Part shown: one piece after another, positions 2,904-37,389 of the stretch
Layout: each line of letters starts with the position of its first letter
How positions within the stretch are numbered: the stretch's first letter is position 1
Origin: Parafrankia sp. EUN1f
GTDB taxonomy: Bacteria; Actinomycetota; Actinomycetes; Frankiales; Frankiaceae
DNA length: 40,882 bases
Assembly (NCBI RefSeq): GCF_000177675.1
Contig: NZ_ADGX01000078.1
Span: 1 to 40,882, forward strand
Direction of reading: 5' to 3'
Program-made: the position numbers and the translations under genes
Notes under the pieces: model-generated
What the model saw: the letters and a program-made list of their open reading frames with translations, nothing else
What the model was told of the DNA's origin: nothing
Database searches by the model: none

Positions 2904-4250
2904 TCAGCCCGGACGGCATCCTCGTGACAGGCGCAGTGCGGTGGCGCCGATCAGGTAGGTGAGAAGGCCGCTGGCAGGCATGCCGACGATGTAGTTCCCC
3001 GTCCGGGGGGTCAGGTTGTTGCTGAGCAGCCCGGCGATGACCGCGGCGAAGGCGGCCAGGGTCAGCCCAAGGCGCGGAATCGGCGTACTGACCGTACTGA
3101 CGACGCGTTCCAGCCGTGGTGGGCACGGGGCGGGCGCGAGGCGCGGGCCGTGTACCTCGATCCGGCCGAATATCGTGACCAGGATGGTCAGAGCCACGGT
3201 CAGCATGACCAGCCACGGCAGCCGCCAGAGCCACCATGCCGCGGTCGCCGCCGGCGGCGTCGGCAGGGCGTCCAGTGCGTTCAGGAGACCGACGACCAGC
3301 AGCACAGCGCTCATGTGCCACAGGAACACGGTGAGCACCACCGTGTTCACCGCCACCACCGCCTGCCAGGGCCGGGCGCGACGCAGCCAGCGCTCGGCCG
3401 GGTCGCGCAGCATCAGCACCAGGCCCAGCTGGAACGCGGTGTCCGCGAGCAGCGCCAGCGTCGGCGGGGACGCGTTGTGCATCCGCTGCCCGGAGACGTC
3501 GATCATGCTGATCGAGTAGGGCCCGGGCACGGTCAGGAGGAACACCACGGCCAGCCCGCCGACCAGCAGGGGCAGCCACAGCTGCGGCCGGAACGACAGC
3601 TGGCCGCCCTGCCAGGCGAAACCGATCTGGTGAATCGCCAGCCAGCCGAAGACGAAGTTGCCGTCACCCCAGGCGTCCGCGCCGCACAGCCGGGCCAGGT
3701 CGCCCAGCCCGACCAGGACGACCAGCACCGCCGGCACGCGCCAGCCGTGGTGCTGATGTAGCCGGAACATGACCGGCGCCAGCAGCACCACGACGAGGTA
3801 GGCGGACAGGAACCACAGCGGGATCGACGCGACCCAGACGGCCATCCGGGTCAGATCGGGGTCCGCCCCGGACAGGCGGGCGATGAGCGCGCTGCCGGCG
3901 AGTACGACTAAAAGAGTGGTGGTGGGTGGGACCAGACGCCCGGCCCGGTTCTGCAGCCAGGTGGCGGCGTCGCCGCCTCGGCGACGGTGCGAGGTCAGGG
4001 AGGCGGCGTTGGCGTATCCGCCGACGATGAAGAACAACGGCATCACCTGAACCAGCCAGGTGATCGGATATGCCCACGGCTGCGACTCCAGCGCCGAGTG
4101 CCCGGTCAACTCGCCGCGTTCGTCGTACTCGAGCACGCTGATGAGCCAATGGCCGAGGACGACGAGAACGATCGCTGTCGCGCGTAGCAGGTCGATGTAG
4201 CGCTCGCGCGAGGCCGGGGTCCTCTCGGCCCGTTCGCGTAGCGCGCCCAC
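2904..4250 (-). CDS. Membrane acyltransferase (acyltransferase family 3)
   Basis: 448 residues from a GTG at 4250. The N-terminal RYIDLLRATAIVLVVLGHW with the invariant His near residue 34 is the acyltransferase-3 signature, followed by MPLFFIVGGYANA, where the family normally has an FF..SGF/GY motif. About ten further hydrophobic segments run through the protein (for example LWLPLLVGGLAVVFLLTVPG and LTLAAFAAVIAGLLSNN). Members move acyl groups onto sugars, glycans or lipids at the cytoplasmic membrane. The C-terminal RLSRGCRPG is basic. It is a single gene on the minus strand with no obvious glycan partner nearby, so the acceptor cannot be named. Start is moderately sure; the ribosome-binding site is weak. 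Confidence 0.85.
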   Translation of the reverse strand: MGALRERAERTPASRERYIDLLRATAIVLVVLGHWLISVLEYDERGELTGHSALESQPWAYPITWLVQVMPLFFIVGGYANAASLTSHRRRGGDAATWLQNRAGRLVPPTTTLLVVLAGSALIARLSGADPDLTRMAVWVASIPLWFLSAYLVVVLLAPVMFRLHQHHGWRVPAVLVVLVGLGDLARLCGADAWGDGNFVFGWLAIHQIGFAWQGGQLSFRPQLWLPLLVGGLAVVFLLTVPGPYSISMIDVSGQRMHNASPPTLALLADTAFQLGLVLMLRDPAERWLRRARPWQAVVAVNTVVLTVFLWHMSAVLLVVGLLNALDALPTPPAATAAWWLWRLPWLVMLTVALTILVTIFGRIEVHGPRLAPAPCPPRLERVVSTVSTPIPRLGLTLAAFAAVIAGLLSNNLTPRTGNYIVGMPASGLLTYLIGATALRLSRGCRPG

Positions 4251-4360
4251 GGCGGCAGCCTAGGGTCCCCGGCGGCCTGCCGCCCGCCGATCTGACCGGT
4301 GCTGGCCATGCCGACCACGCCACCTTCGCCGGAGGCTTCGGCGGCGCGCCTGGCGACGGA

Positions 4361-5080
4361 TCAGGAGCTGGCCACGTCGACGAGAGCGTCGGTGACCGCC
4401 TGTGGCTCAGTGATCATGAGGTCGTGCCCGGTGTCGATGTCCCAGAGCCGGCCGGCGGCGCGGGCCTTCGATGTCAGCTCCGGGTCCCTGGTCGCCAGGG
4501 TGGAGGTGCAGACGATGTGGTACTGCGGGATCGCCCACAGGGCGTCCTCGTTGGTGAGGGTCAGCGGCTGCTCGAAGCACCGCCAGGGGTGCGGGGTCAG
4601 CCGGTCGGCCATCCAGGCGATGTCGTCCGGGTCGGTCACCCCGTAGAAGGTGCCGGCTTCGGGGAACGGGATGAGCACGAGCTCGACACCGTCCACGACC
4701 TTCCCCATCGGGCGGGTGGCGGCGATGATCGGCCCGGCGACGTCGAGCAGCGACTGGCCGTTGACCGGGTTCGCCGCGTCGAGGTAGACGAGGCGCCCGA
4801 TCCGGTCCGCGGCACGGTCGGCGACGCCGGTGATGACCATGCCGCCGTAGCTGTGCCCGACCAGGATCACGTCACGCAGGTTCTCGTGGTGCAGCAGCGC
4901 GACAACGTCCTGGATGTGCAGGTCGAGGTCGATGTGGGGGCCGACGAGGTGCGCCCGCTCACCTAAGCCGGTCAGCGTCGGCGTGTACACCTCGTGCCCG
5001 GCCGCCCGCAGCAGCCGTGCCACCGGCTGATAGCACCAGCCACCGTGGCCGCCGCCGTGTACGAGGACGTATGTAGCCAT
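4361..5080 (-). CDS. Alpha/beta hydrolase (salicylate-esterase-like)
   Basis: 239 residues; start ATG 5080 (MATYVLVHGGGHGGW) chosen because GGAGGAGA lies just upstream and the HGGGHGGW oxyanion-loop motif begins at once; an upstream in-frame start at 5137 is less likely. The nucleophile elbow is GHSYGG with Ser77, and the C-terminal DTGHDLMITEP supplies the probable catalytic His. This compact architecture is that of the methyl-ester hydrolase/salicylate-binding-protein-like branch of alpha/beta hydrolases, which hydrolyse small esters. It is transcribed divergently from a TetR gene with two operators in the shared spacer, so it is probably the regulator's target and responds to a small aromatic or ester inducer. 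Substrate is inferred only. Confidence 0.88.
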   Translation of the reverse strand: MATYVLVHGGGHGGWCYQPVARLLRAAGHEVYTPTLTGLGERAHLVGPHIDLDLHIQDVVALLHHENLRDVILVGHSYGGMVITGVADRAADRIGRLVYLDAANPVNGQSLLDVAGPIIAATRPMGKVVDGVELVLIPFPEAGTFYGVTDPDDIAWMADRLTPHPWRCFEQPLTLTNEDALWAIPQYHIVCTSTLATRDPELTSKARAAGRLWDIDTGHDLMITEPQAVTDALVDVASS

Positions 5081-32585: not shown

Positions 32586-32821
32586 GCTTGCGAGTTGTCA
32601 AGTGGCCTCGTGTCGCGTTTTGCATCTATTGGTGTGAATCGCTGGCGCTGGGTGACGGCGCGTGATCCCCGATGGGCGGCCGTGCGGTGCGTGGACGCGG
32701 ATCGCCAGGCCAATGTCGGTGGCCCGGATCCGCTACTTCTCGTCGCGGGCCGACCAGTGGTGGGCCGAAGCGCTGTGCGTCGTAGCGTCGTGAGCTCCGA
32801 CGTCTCGGGCCGGGCGCGGCC

Positions 32822-32866
32822 GTGGGTCGGGTGTGGCTGTGGGCCGGGTGTGGCTGTGGGTCGGGC
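32822..32866. repeat. 17-bp tandem repeat, 2.6 copies
   Basis: GTGGGTCGGGTGTGGCT at 32822 and GTGGGCCGGGTGTGGCT at 32839 (one difference), then a partial third unit at 32856. Located about 50 bp before the phased operator. Confidence 0.88.
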
Positions 32867-32916
32867 GGACGTATCGTCACGAACGGTTGCCGCGTCGGTA
32901 CCCTTCCTGGCAGGCT

Positions 32917-32939
32917 GCAAATTGTCGTATGCAAATTGC
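32917..32939. promoter_or_regulatory. Phased GCAA-N-TTGC operator upstream of the XRE gene
   Basis: GCAAATTGT at 32917 and the perfect palindrome GCAAATTGC at 32931 are spaced exactly 14 bp. The same motif and spacing recur at 34092-34129 on the other side of the XRE gene. About 75 bp before the XRE start, consistent with autoregulation. Confidence 0.6.
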
Positions 32940-33014
32940 GCATCCGGCCTCCCGGTGGAGTTGAATCCGTCAGGATGAGTACCGACCCAGGGCAGGGAAG
33001 GTGAGGCGGCCGCC

Positions 33015-33869
33015 ATGGCGACCAACGCTGTCGTTGCACGCAGGCGACTTGCGCTGAGCCTCCGGGAACGGCGGCTGCGGGCCGGGCTGACCCTGGAGGA
33101 GATGGCCCGCCGGATGGAGTGCTCGCCAGCAAAGATCAGTCGGATGGAGACCGGGCGCACCGGCGTGCGCGTCGCCGACCTGCGAATGATCGCCGACGTG
33201 CTCGGGCTCGGGCCGGCCGACCACGAGGCGATGATCGAGCTGGTGCGCCAGGCCCGGGGCCGGGAGTGGTGGCATGAGTTCGCCGACATCGTCCCCGACG
33301 GGTCGGCCACGCTCTTCGGCCTCGAGGACGGCGCGCCGGCCATCAGCCAGCACAGCACGTCGATCGTGCCCGGCCTGCTGCAGACCCCCGAGTACGCCCG
33401 CGCACTGATCTCCTCGGTGGAGGGGATCACCGCCGACCTGGTTGAGCGGCGCCTGGCGCTGCGGCTGCGCCGCCAGCACCTGCTGGACCGTCCACAGCCC
33501 CCGCGGCTGGACATCGTCCTGGACGAGGCTGTGCTGTGCCGGGTGATCGGTGGCGCCGAGGTGATGGCTGGCCAGTGCCGCCATCTGCTCGCGCGTGCCG
33601 CGGCCCCGCATGTGGTCGTCCGGGTGGTTCCGTTCGACGCCGCCACGCACGCCGCGGAGGGCGTCGGTTTCATCATCTTCGAGTTCGACGGCGAGGAGGA
33701 CGTGATGACTCCGGTCGTCTTCGCCGAGCAGCTGAGCCGGAGCACCTTGATCGATGATCCTGATGAGGCGGGCGGCTACCAGACGGCGCTCGCCGGCGCG
33801 CGCAGCGCCGCGCTGACGCCGGAGCGCTCCCTCGAGCTGATCGCCGCGCGGGCCGCCGGGCTGCGCTGA
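33015..33869 (+). CDS. XRE family regulator with DUF5753 ligand domain
   Basis: 284 residues from ATG 33015. N-terminal helix-turn-helix: LRERRLRAGLTLEEMARRMECSPAKISRMETGRTGVRVADLRMIADVLGL. The rest is the DUF5753 domain (SQHSTSIVPGLLQTPEYARALI, RLALRLRRQHLLDRPQPPRLDIVLDEAVLCR, VVRVVPFDAATHAA). These regulators occur in actinobacteria with small DUF397 proteins, thought to act as paired partners in development and antibiotic control. Here the DUF397 gene is convergent, 345 bp away, instead of directly downstream on the same strand. Strong hairpins follow the stop. Confidence 0.92.
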   Translation: MATNAVVARRRLALSLRERRLRAGLTLEEMARRMECSPAKISRMETGRTGVRVADLRMIADVLGLGPADHEAMIELVRQARGREWWHEFADIVPDGSATLFGLEDGAPAISQHSTSIVPGLLQTPEYARALISSVEGITADLVERRLALRLRRQHLLDRPQPPRLDIVLDEAVLCRVIGGAEVMAGQCRHLLARAAAPHVVVRVVPFDAATHAAEGVGFIIFEFDGEEDVMTPVVFAEQLSRSTLIDDPDEAGGYQTALAGARSAALTPERSLELIAARAAGLR

Positions 33870-33872
33870 CCT

Positions 33873-33906
33873 GCTGGGAGCGCCGACCCGCTGGGAGCGC
33901 TGACCC
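33873..33906. repeat. 17-bp tandem repeat after the XRE stop
   Basis: GCTGGGAGCGCCGACCC (33873-33889) and GCTGGGAGCGCTGACCC (33890-33906). In addition, CTGCGCTGACC, which spans the XRE stop at 33861-33871, recurs at 33943-33953 and 33960-33970. The spacer 33870-34213 holds these repeats, two hairpins and the phased operator, and no gene I can support. Confidence 0.85.
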
Positions 33907-33907
33907 G

Positions 33908-33935
33908 CTGGTCTGTGCCGGCCTGCACAGACCAG
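33908..33935 (+). terminator. Hairpin downstream of the XRE gene
   Basis: CTGGTCTGTGC (33908-33918) pairs perfectly with GCACAGACCAG (33925-33935) over a 6-nt loop, 39 nt after the stop. Confidence 0.65.
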
Positions 33936-33986
33936 TACGGACCTGCGCTGACCTGCGGCCTGCGCTGACCCGCCGGGCGCTACCTG

Positions 33987-34029
33987 GGCTCGCCGCCGTC
34001 CCTCTCCCCGTGTGGGACGGCGGCGAGCC
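33987..34029 (+). terminator. Strong 16-bp hairpin terminator
   Basis: GGCTCGCCGCCGTCCC (33987-34002) pairs perfectly with GGGACGGCGGCGAGCC (34014-34029), loop 11 nt, followed by TT. It probably terminates the XRE transcript. Confidence 0.75.
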
Positions 34030-34091
34030 TTGCGTCCGGCCGGACGTCTCGGTGGCGGTTAGCCAGATGGCCGACCAGGCGGAAGCCTTGC

Positions 34092-34129
34092 GCAACTTGC
34101 GAGATGCAACTTGCAAGATGCAGTATTGC
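34092..34129. promoter_or_regulatory. Three phased GCAA-N-TTGC repeats between XRE and DUF397 genes
   Basis: GCAACTTGC at 34092 and 34106 are perfect palindromes, and GCAGTATTGC at 34120 is a degenerate third, all at 14-bp spacing. The same motif and period occur upstream of the XRE gene. Here they lie downstream of both convergent genes, with no start codon of a supported gene nearby. Confidence 0.55.
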
Positions 34130-34213
34130 GGATGCGTCCACCGATCTCAACGAAATGCCGGTCGTGGCCGGATGAACCGTGCGACCGGCCGGGTCGGCGG
34201 GCCCTCGGGTGAC

Positions 34214-34483
34214 TCAGATCAACGGCAGCTCGAACTCGCCGTTACGAACGCCGAGCAGGAACGCCTCCCACTCCTCGGGAGTGAAGCGCAGGACCGGCCC
34301 GTCGAGGTCCTTCGAGTCGCGCACGCCGACACCGCCCGGCCCGAGCTGCACGTCCACACAGGTGTCCGCGGCGCCCTGACAGAAGCTGCTGCGCAGCCAG
34401 GCACGGTCGGCGGAGGCAGAGGCGGAGGCTGGGGCGGAGGTGACGGGATGCGACGCACTGTCCAGGTGCGCGGGGCGGTACAT
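34214..34483 (-). CDS. DUF397 domain protein
   Basis: 89 residues, start ATG 34483 chosen because AGGAG lies 5 nt upstream; in-frame starts at 34564 or 34624 would make it longer than typical for the family. DUF397 signature: AWLRSSFCQGAADTCVDVQLGPGGVGVRDSKDLDGPVLRFTPEEWEAFLLGVRNGEFE. A low-complexity Ser/Ala stretch (SAPASASASA) precedes it. These small acidic proteins accompany XRE/DUF5753 regulators such as the one at 33015 and are proposed to modulate them. Same strand as the FHA gene upstream, 150 bp apart. Confidence 0.9.
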   Translation of the reverse strand: MYRPAHLDSASHPVTSAPASASASADRAWLRSSFCQGAADTCVDVQLGPGGVGVRDSKDLDGPVLRFTPEEWEAFLLGVRNGEFELPLI

Positions 34484-34633
34484 GAACACTCCTGGATGGA
34501 AGGCCGGGACGATCGGCCGAGGCGGAGCGTGTCTCGCGGGCTCCGGACCACTGTCGGTGGACATTACGATCACACCTTTTTGTGGCCTGTTCCGAAAGGC
34601 TGCGCTGGCGCAGTGTCCGGTCACAGTGTCCGG

Positions 34634-35386
34634 TCAGCGCAACCAGGCCGGTGGGCGGCGATAGGCCGCGAACGCGGGCGGTGCGAGGTAGCCGGCCTGG
34701 ACGAGGACGTAGAGGTAGTCGGGGTTGGTCAGCCCCACCCGGCGGTGCAGGCCCAGCCGTACCGCCCGCTCGTGGACGTGCCGGAGCCGTTCCCGTACCG
34801 CGCTCTCGCCGATACCGAGGCGGCGGGCGGCGGCGTCGAGCTGCATGGGCTGTGCGGGTAGCCGCGGCGGCCACTGCAACAGCTCGTTGAAGACCAGCCG
34901 CACCGCCTCCTCCTGCGGGCCGGACAGCGGAAGCGGAGGCTCGGGGCTGACGGTCCAGGTGGTCGTGGGCGGATGGGCCCGCGGGCCCTGGGCCGTAACC
35001 GTTGCGGTGTCCGCTTCCAGCAGCAGCCAGTGATGGGCCGGATCACTGGTGTCGGGCCCCTGGCGCTTCGCCCCGCCGAGCAGGCGGATGGCGAGCCGCG
35101 GCCAGCGCAGGAACTGGCGCCCGGTGATGCGCTGCGGCGCCTGGCCCCAGGGGTGCAGCATCGCGCCGTTGAGGTTGAGCACGTTGATGTCCCAGCCGTC
35201 CTCGGCGGCCGTCACCTCGATCGCCTTTCGGGAGATCCCGCGGTTGAGGACCTCGACGCCGAGCCTGAGCTCGCCCTCGCGGCCGACGACGAGTGTTCTG
35301 CCGACCTCGACGGACAGCCCGACGGGCACACACGACCGGCCGGGCTCGTACTCGTAGGCCAGGATCCACCGCTCACCCGCGCTCAT
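34634..35386 (-). CDS. FHA-like domain protein with C-terminal winged-helix-like region
   Basis: 250 residues. Start at ATG 35386 (MSAGERWILAYEYEPG) because the upstream open frame to 35674 is low-quality sequence crossing a tandem repeat. N-terminal half is FHA-like (LVVGREGELRLGVEVLNRGISRKAIEVTAAEDGWDINVLNLNGAMLHPWG), containing GR, a RGISRKA analogue of the S-R/H core, and LN-G. The C-terminal half (LDAAARRLGIGESAVRERLRHVHERAVRLGLHRRVGLTNPDYLYVLVQAGYL) looks like a helix-turn-helix. FHA domains bind phosphothreonine, so it may be a kinase-responsive regulator. No Ser/Thr kinase gene is in the window. Confidence 0.75.
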   Translation of the reverse strand: MSAGERWILAYEYEPGRSCVPVGLSVEVGRTLVVGREGELRLGVEVLNRGISRKAIEVTAAEDGWDINVLNLNGAMLHPWGQAPQRITGRQFLRWPRLAIRLLGGAKRQGPDTSDPAHHWLLLEADTATVTAQGPRAHPPTTTWTVSPEPPLPLSGPQEEAVRLVFNELLQWPPRLPAQPMQLDAAARRLGIGESAVRERLRHVHERAVRLGLHRRVGLTNPDYLYVLVQAGYLAPPAFAAYRRPPAWLR

Positions 35387-35591
35387 CGTGCCGATACCCC
35401 GCTCTCCCGACTCCGTTTCCGTGGTTGCCGCGCGAACGGTATTTTTTCGATCCACCGCCTCGCCGGACGCGGCGGGTGCGCCCGCGATGGCGGGATGATG
35501 CTGGGGTGTAGTGACTCCGCCGGTGGGAGCGTCAGGAGATCCCGACAGCTGTCGCCGATGCGTGGTTCTGCGGGCGGGCGACAGCCTCAGA

Positions 35592-35625
35592 AGATCGCCG
35601 GTGTCCGCAGATCGCCGGTGTCCGC
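35592..35625. repeat. Exact 17-bp tandem duplication
   Basis: AGATCGCCGGTGTCCGC at 35592-35608 and 35609-35625, between the GGDEF stop and the FHA start. The rest of the spacer 35387-35670 holds nothing I recognise. Confidence 0.92.
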
Positions 35626-35670
35626 CGGTGATCGAGGTGGAACCGCTCGGGTGCCCTGAGGCCGGTCGGG

Positions 35671-37389
35671 TCACACCTGGTAGGTGGTGACGGATTGTCC
35701 GCCCCCGGCCTGCTTGGCCTTGTACATGGACATATCCGCGGCGTTCAGCAGGCGGTCCGGATTGGTGCGGCCCGTATCCGATATGGCGACTCCCGCGCTG
35801 GCGGTCACCGTGTGGAGGACTCCTTCCACCGAGATCGCCTCGCCCAGGCGGGCGATGACCCGGTGGGCCAGCCGCTCCATCTGACCGCCGTCGCGCACCT
35901 CGGTACAGACGATGGCGAACTCGTCCCCGCCCAGCCGGCCGACGAGATCGGTGGGCCGGACGGCGGCCGACAGGCGTCTGGCGACGGTGCGCAGAACGGC
36001 GTCCCCGGCTGTGTGGCCGTGGTTGTCATTGATCGTTTTGAAGCCGTCGAGGTCGAGGAATATCACCGCGACGGAACGGCCCTGGCCGCGGGAGGGATCG
36101 AGGGCCTGGCCGAGGTGGTCGAGGAGCGCTGCGCGGTTGGCCAGCCCGGTCAGATCGTCGTGCTGGGACCGGTACCGCAGCTGGCGTTCCGCGGCCAGCC
36201 GCGCGGTGGCGGAGACCAGGACGTCCGCGATGGCCCGAACATGTTGTTCGTCGTCCGCGTCGTCCGCGTCGTACATACCGTCCGCGGATGCGCCGGCGGT
36301 GTCGGTGTGGCTGTCGGTGTTGGTGTCGGTGTCGGGCCTCTGCACCACGACGACCCGTGCCGACCGGCGACCCTGCCCCGCGCCCGCCACCAGTGTCTGC
36401 CAGCCTGGGACGACGGACGAGTACCGGATGTCGCCGGCCGCGGGGATGTCACTCGTTCCGGCGAGGTGGGCGGCCACGAGGCTGGCCCAGCCGGGGGGTG
36501 GGCCCAGCGCCGGTTCGGGCACCGTGCAGGCCACCGGGGCCGTACCGCCGACATCCCACAGTGAGACGTGAGCATTCAGCGAACCGGCGAGCGTTCGCAC
36601 TGCCAGGCGCCACAGTGCGGCCGAGTCGGCGGTCTCAAGAGCCTGATGGGCGAACCGCGCGACGACAGCCTGTCGGGCGCGGGACCGCTCGCGGGCCGTG
36701 ACATACACGCCGACCCCGACCATCCGGGTCACCTTGCCGTGGGCGTCCAGCAACGGGGTGAGGTTGACGTCGACCTGGCCGCCGACGGCGGCGGTGGCGG
36801 TGCATGCGACGACGTGGCCGGACTGCGCGTCGCGCAGAAGCTCGATGAGCTCCGTCTCGTCGGCGAAGACCTCGAAGACGGAGGAGACCGTCGACTGCGC
36901 CAGCCCGGCGACAGCTCCCGGGGCGATACCGCCGCCGCCGATCAGCACGCGCCCGGCGGCGTCCAGCAACGCGAAGCTGACCGGGCTGTGGGTGAGGATC
37001 GTCCGCACCTGCTCGCGCAGCGGGTCGCCGTCGACGCGGTCCTGGAGAAAGCACGCACAGTCAGCGCACCCGGGTCCTGACGTCAGTCTGGTCATCACGA
37101 CCGGCACCGCGGAGCCGTCCGGCCGCCGGATCACCATGGCGTGGCGGTCCGGCGAGGAGTGCTGATCCCCAGGGAGCAGTTCGTCCCACTCGTCGAAGGA
37201 CAGCAGGGACGTCAGCGGGGTGCCGAGCAGTGCGCGCCGGTCTCGGTCGAACAGGGCGACCGCGCGGTTGTTGAGATAGGAGATGCGGTCGTCCGGCGGG
37301 GTGACCACCACGACGCCGGCCGGCAGGTCGTCGACCAGCTTGCGCCATCGCACTGTTCCTCCCTCCGCCCCGTCCGGTTTCCCATCCAC
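35671..37389 (-). CDS. PAS-domain diguanylate cyclase (GGDEF)
   Basis: 572 residues from ATG 37389 (MDGKPDGAEGGTVRWRKLV). A PAS domain opens the protein (LVDDLPAGVVVVTPPDDRISYLNNRAVALFDRDR..LLGTPL), a second PAS-like region begins near residue 130 (TILTHSPVSFALLDAAGRVLIGGGG), and a GAF-like stretch follows. The GGDEF domain starts at HDDLTGLANRAALLDHL; RLGGDEF begins near residue 485 with an intact active site and an RxxD inhibitory site (RPTD) five residues before it. It should make c-di-GMP with product inhibition. An Asp/Thr-rich low-complexity linker (36236-36335: DTDTNTDSHTDT, DADDADD) precedes the catalytic domain. No membrane segment, so a cytoplasmic sensor. Confidence 0.92.
   Translation of the reverse strand: MDGKPDGAEGGTVRWRKLVDDLPAGVVVVTPPDDRISYLNNRAVALFDRDRRALLGTPLTSLLSFDEWDELLPGDQHSSPDRHAMVIRRPDGSAVPVVMTRLTSGPGCADCACFLQDRVDGDPLREQVRTILTHSPVSFALLDAAGRVLIGGGGIAPGAVAGLAQSTVSSVFEVFADETELIELLRDAQSGHVVACTATAAVGGQVDVNLTPLLDAHGKVTRMVGVGVYVTARERSRARQAVVARFAHQALETADSAALWRLAVRTLAGSLNAHVSLWDVGGTAPVACTVPEPALGPPPGWASLVAAHLAGTSDIPAAGDIRYSSVVPGWQTLVAGAGQGRRSARVVVVQRPDTDTNTDSHTDTAGASADGMYDADDADDEQHVRAIADVLVSATARLAAERQLRYRSQHDDLTGLANRAALLDHLGQALDPSRGQGRSVAVIFLDLDGFKTINDNHGHTAGDAVLRTVARRLSAAVRPTDLVGRLGGDEFAIVCTEVRDGGQMERLAHRVIARLGEAISVEGVLHTVTASAGVAISDTGRTNPDRLLNAADMSMYKAKQAGGGQSVTTYQV

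Follow-up and report, generated by a model that had tools for sequence, protein, structure and literature searches.

Two arrays of GCAA-N-TTGC repeats, candidate sites for a WhiJ-like regulator, flank an XRE gene convergent with a DUF397 gene in Parafrankia sp. EUN1f

Gene pairs encoding an XRE-family regulator and a DUF397 protein are numerous in actinobacteria and, to our knowledge, few operators are known for them.

Among the described systems, all of them cited here as far as the excerpts of the respective papers go, the WhiJ9/BldB9 pair of S. venezuelae consists of an XRE HTH regulator and a DUF397 partner. WhiJ9 binds three direct repeats (CGXXCTCAAC) beside its own gene, in a divergent intergenic region, and the loss of WhiJ9 raises its own transcription 2-fold, which is consistent with autorepression (PMC10294661). 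SCO1979 has been named among the XRE regulators that bind 5' of their own gene (PMC12565409). Scr1/Scr2 (SCO4441/SCO4442) from Streptomyces coelicolor is an XRE-DUF397 pair acting as a regulator, with the XRE gene placed first and the DUF397 gene behind it, and the excerpted text describes no operator array for it (PMC6262351). A type II toxin-antitoxin role, with a toxic DUF397 protein and a neutralising XRE protein, has also been proposed for such pairs (PMC2701414), and the overexpression of 14 DUF397 proteins in S. coelicolor produced no clear toxicity according to the excerpted report (PMC10364602).

The locus analyzed here lies in a stretch of 40,882 nucleotides from Parafrankia sp. EUN1f (contig NZ_ADGX01000078.1), hereafter the window, and comprises the following features:

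32917 to 32939, no strand assigned: O1, the upstream array of two GCAA-N-TTGC dyads 14 bp apart, ending 75 bp 5' of the XRE start.
33015 to 33869, plus strand: XRE-family regulator gene, WhiJ-like, HTH_31 and DUF5753 domains, 284 aa (Pfam and orthologues).
33987 to 34029, no strand assigned: strong hairpin with 16-bp stems, a probable bidirectional terminator without a T-tract (fold z -4.2; a similar hairpin in AgKG'84/4).
34092 to 34128, no strand assigned: O2, the distal array of two exact dyads and a degenerate third in 14-bp phase (copies in G004 and AgKG'84/4).
34122 to 34150, minus strand: promoter-like sequence TTGAGA-17-AATACT, whose second hexamer overlaps or abuts O2 (consensus scan).
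34214 to about 34570, minus strand: BldB-like DUF397 gene, facing the XRE gene in convergent orientation (Pfam and open reading frame list).

This arrangement resembles WhiJ9/BldB9 in its two partners and in the repeats beside the regulator gene, but it has GCAA-N-TTGC dyads spaced 14 bp apart instead of three direct repeats, a DUF397 gene that converges on the XRE gene, and an additional array behind the latter. XRE-DUF397 pairs have been described before, as have repeat operators associated with them. In our search of the open-licence literature, consulted in excerpts, we found no convergent XRE/DUF397 pair described as having a distal operator, nor did we find the convergent subfamily, its GCAA-N-TTGC operator, or the distal second array.

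The XRE protein carries its two domains (PF13560, E 7.6e-17; PF19054, E 2.7e-53) in a single polypeptide, and the adjacent gene matches PF04149 (E 6.5e-19; 34217-34570, minus strand), which is the composition of a WhiJ-BldB type pair. The DUF397 gene has its stop at 34214 and could start at an ATG (34564-34566) or at an upstream GTG (34624). The first-pass annotation had described the two genes as convergent rather than tandem, and the Pfam matches on the plus (XRE) and minus (DUF397) strands bear this out. The best NCBIfam model for the XRE protein is NF058600, that of the SCO1979 family (E 2.3e-62), but its 210.6 bits are well under the family cut-off of 350, and therefore the protein falls outside this family. 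An 11-row profile of the XRE protein detected no solved relative at E 0.001, and a scan of the window at the Rfam gathering thresholds detected no known structured RNA. The possibility of a defence system was rejected, since PADLOC gave weak HTH matches alone and none for DUF397. An ORF that adjoins the DUF397 gene (34634-35674, minus strand) is HTH-like without reaching the cut-off of any Pfam family; its homologues lie near the XRE gene in 7/13 of the other orthologue loci, in several of them on the other side of the XRE gene.

The repeats are located at 32917 and 32931 in O1, and at 34092, 34106, and 34120 in O2, with a spacing of 14 bp within both arrays, as initially annotated. The description of every copy as a GCAA-N-TTGC palindrome stands for the copies at 32931 (GCAAATTGC) and at 34092 and 34106 (both GCAACTTGC), which are exact, and for the one at 34120 (GCAGTATTG) as a degenerate copy, but not for the copy at 32917 (GCAAATTGT), which is imperfect, with 1 mismatch. 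The arrays could equally be parsed as 7-bp direct repeats with TGCA cores. The distance of 75 bp between the upstream set and the XRE start was confirmed, with the ATG at 33015. Further 5' of O1, at 32820-32866, there is also a short near-tandem G+C-rich repeat (gtgggtcgggtgtggct).

A single GCAANTTGC with up to 1 mismatch is not rare, being found 9 times in the window against 6.4 expected. Pairs of dyads in 14-bp phase, with up to 2 mismatches, are found only at the O1 and O2 places of the 9.35-Mb genome, each read on both strands, and the backwards-read control pattern gave 1 match in the same search. Hence, the objection that the motif might be equally common genome-wide failed when it was tested. 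In second-order Markov simulations (300 per flank), the score of neither O1 nor O2 was reached, a test that is partly circular in the window and independent only in the relatives, because the pattern itself was derived from the window.

For the comparison with relatives we have used 14 orthologue loci: the window, its near-twin in genome G004 (XRE identity 99%), Frankia sp. AgKG'84/4 (67-69%), 8 other Frankiaceae loci (53-59%), and 3 Pseudonocardia loci (52-54%). In a tree of 21 XRE proteins, all 14 loci form one clade (100/100), within which the window, G004, and AgKG'84/4 form a clade of their own (97/95). The orthologue was matched at E 1e-62 in 10/393 genomes of the class, among Frankiaceae, with up to six candidates scored per genome, and the P. 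oroxyli protein was matched at E 1e-75 in 2/62 genomes of the Pseudonocardia set. The Pseudonocardia sp. CNS-139 locus (L055 4001-4824) has an XRE frame that, read from 4001, hits a stop at 4316, with its main match at 4171-4824, and thus either this gene is broken or the assembly is in error.

The XRE and DUF397 genes are convergent in 11/14 of these loci and lie on the same strand in AgKG'84/4; DUF397 was not found in the other two, L040 and L046, the latter stopping close behind the XRE gene at a contig end. Of 29 more distant loci (a count that excludes 6 from genomes already counted, the 3 Pseudonocardia loci, and 2 unscanned), DUF397 shares the strand of the XRE gene in 25, the two genes converge in 1, and in 3 no DUF397 was seen. 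Given 11/14 against 1/29, convergence is characteristic of the orthologue subfamily rather than a novelty of the window. The past inversion that had been suggested for the window locus was not borne out when its orientation was compared in the relatives, and a recent inversion was rejected, since the convergent order, being common to 11/14 loci, is the ancestral state. AgKG'84/4 is a rearranged exception, where an ORF (L038 3979-5358, minus strand) intervenes and the XRE gene follows it on the strand of DUF397; this ORF has no Pfam match and, by inspection, a lipoprotein-like N-terminus. The XRE gene also has paralogues in its own genome, with 5 other matches counted, 4 of which were viewed for gene order, any arrays beside them being covered by the genome-wide pattern search alone. 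One of these paralogues (L106, G000:C294:22000-28000) has a DUF397 match on its own strand and, immediately past it, a second one on the other strand.

Arrays similar to O1 recur 5' of the orthologous XRE genes. In 9/14 loci (window, G004, L039, L040, L043, L046, L050, L055, and L078), the score of the best double-motif match in the 200 bases 5' of the XRE gene was reached by at most 2/300 Markov simulations; seven of these loci come in addition to the window and its near-twin, and Pseudonocardia is represented. The upstream array was not significant in the other five, that is, AgKG'84/4, L041, L042, L045, and L044, the last one being borderline (8/300). A matrix built from 4 sites (window O1, L050, L055, and L078) placed its top hit 5' of the XRE gene in 7/8 held-out loci (right in L039-L044 and L046, wrong in L045), once the near-twin G004 and AgKG'84/4, with its moved XRE gene, were left out. 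Across 11 sites, the conserved columns are the A, the T, and the outer C/G of both dyads, whereas the middle position (N) of the second dyad varies freely.

At the scale of whole genomes, the double motif with up to 1 mismatch was present in 2/2 of the same-genus genomes that have the orthologue and in 0/4 of those without it. A search of 58 genomes at the same tolerance gave matches in 4 (window, G004, G027, and G007), and the backwards control gave matches in 3 (G024, G027, and G031); single matches outside the locus may thus be due to chance. The G007 match was set aside as unrelated after inspecting the neighboring ORFs. When the looser pattern GYAANTTRC-N5-GYAANTTRC with 2 mismatches was searched in 10 orthologue genomes, no excess was found (18 places for the forward pattern, 22 for its backwards control).

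The conservation of O1-type arrays matches the expectation for an operator that has been retained together with its regulator, and O1 is very probably the own operator of the XRE/DUF5753 gene. The earlier proposal that the arrays are sites of the XRE protein is supported to the extent that, because of their conservation 5' of orthologues, they look like putative XRE binding sites.

O2 was found only in the window, in G004, and in AgKG'84/4, i.e., in one clade, and in the 400 bases behind the XRE gene no significant array was detected in any of the 14 loci other than the window and G004. In all three, the order is DUF397 stop, O2, hairpin. Between the window and AgKG'84/4, 15/16 defined bases of O2 and 26/38 bases over the array are identical, as are 32/44 in the hairpin, against 22/57 and 29/62 in the other non-coding parts, where gapped columns (2 and 22) were excluded. 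Between the window and G004, the array (46/48) is conserved no better than its surroundings (115/124 and 77/81), a pair too alike to reveal constraint. O2 was scored with a profile of 8 XRE-sense arrays, which tells the orientation right for only 5/8 known arrays and includes a training site, L050, that has the O2 spacer too; it fits better on the minus than on the plus strand, both in the window (31.0 vs 20.5 bits) and in AgKG'84/4 (23.1 vs 17.3 bits).

The consensus promoter scan of 32800-34720 found a single site, against 0.1 expected, which is the minus-strand sequence beside O2; no plus-strand match was found in the same scan. G004 has the same minus-strand match, and the same scan gave none in AgKG'84/4. 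The second hexamer abuts O2, and this is the position of a putative repressor site. The hairpin was not flagged by a terminator scan that requires a T-tract. It had been suggested that the distal set could mark an unannotated transcript; such a transcript is possible, because the promoter-like sequence overlaps O2, and it is predicted on the minus strand, from about 34115 toward the hairpin.

On balance, we favor the reading that both arrays are sites of the adjacent WhiJ-like XRE/DUF5753 protein, with O1 serving for autoregulation and O2 as a second operator, acting in the window on the minus-strand promoter. The XRE protein would bind O1 and control its own promoter, in the simplest form as an autorepressor; by analogy, autorepression as inferred for WhiJ9 is the most likely mode. 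The DUF397 protein would be a partner that tunes the XRE protein. O2 would have been gained as a second operator of the same XRE protein in the lineage that unites the window with G004 and AgKG'84/4, and in the window it would most likely control the minus-strand promoter, from which a short transcript would run from about 34115 to 33987 and stop at the hairpin that lies in the 3' spacer common to both genes. That O2 drives or silences such a short XRE-controlled RNA in order to coordinate regulator and partner via their shared 3' ends is a tentative extension, possible rather than probable.

Other roles can be considered for O2. The XRE protein, bound to both arrays, could close a loop around its own gene and strengthen repression. 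Two arrays of the same design do flank one gene, at separations of 1175 bp (window) and 1142 bp (G004), and looping of WhiJ9 at a distance has been proposed, not shown, in the excerpted report (PMC10294661). However, AgKG'84/4 retains O2 with no detectable O1, and this persistence without a partner site makes looping unlikely as the only role; the other 11 orthologue loci, moreover, lack a significant array within the first 400 bp beyond the XRE gene. Looping, which the first-pass annotation had also suggested, we regard as unlikely.

A role at the 3' end of DUF397, in which the XRE protein at O2 blocks or stops the polymerase coming from DUF397, or antisense RNA starts into DUF397, the convergent genes thus being spared interference, appears quite improbable. 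The order of stop, array, and hairpin is kept in the three loci although the XRE gene of AgKG'84/4 has moved, and in S. clavuligerus the XRE-DUF397 pairs are enriched for bidirectional transcript ends (10/24 pairs, in the excerpted data of PMC8269248). This role is disfavored by the lack of a plus-strand promoter match in the scanned region and by the other convergent orthologues, which have short 3' spacers and no array.

It is similarly improbable that O2 is a relic, in which operator and promoter would be the remains of a gene, or of a second XRE copy, that has since been lost and that used to face left in the way the XRE gene of AgKG'84/4 does. The minus-strand promoter match in the window would agree with it, as would the better minus-strand fit of O2 in both lineages, within the 5/8 accuracy of the profile. 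Nevertheless, a search of 33870-34213 detected no remnant of the XRE gene, the DUF397 gene, or the ORF that intervenes in AgKG'84/4 (best E 0.69), the retention of 15/16 defined bases across two lineages suggests use, and in AgKG'84/4 the hairpin stands between O2 and the downstream genes.

Finally, that the arrays belong to another regulator is very unlikely: G007 has a similar palindrome (1 mismatch) between two unrelated ORFs, and G010 and G028 have similar ones with no XRE/DUF397 relative in the stretch examined, but the window genome has the sites nowhere other than at this locus, and they recur 5' of this XRE subfamily across two families.

The favored reading, with the XRE protein acting at both arrays, provides a recognizable and conserved candidate operator (GCAA-N-TTGC dyads at 14 bp) that is directly testable in two bacterial families. 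Through the distal array, the regulator would act 3' of its own gene and of its convergent partner, which would be uncommon.

Outside this subfamily, the arrangement GCAAATTTA-N5-TGCAA-N-TTGC was observed in G010 and G028 close 5' of possible starts of other ORFs (L110 about 2833, L111 about 2464, and L112 about 2552), and these palindromes probably serve another regulator.
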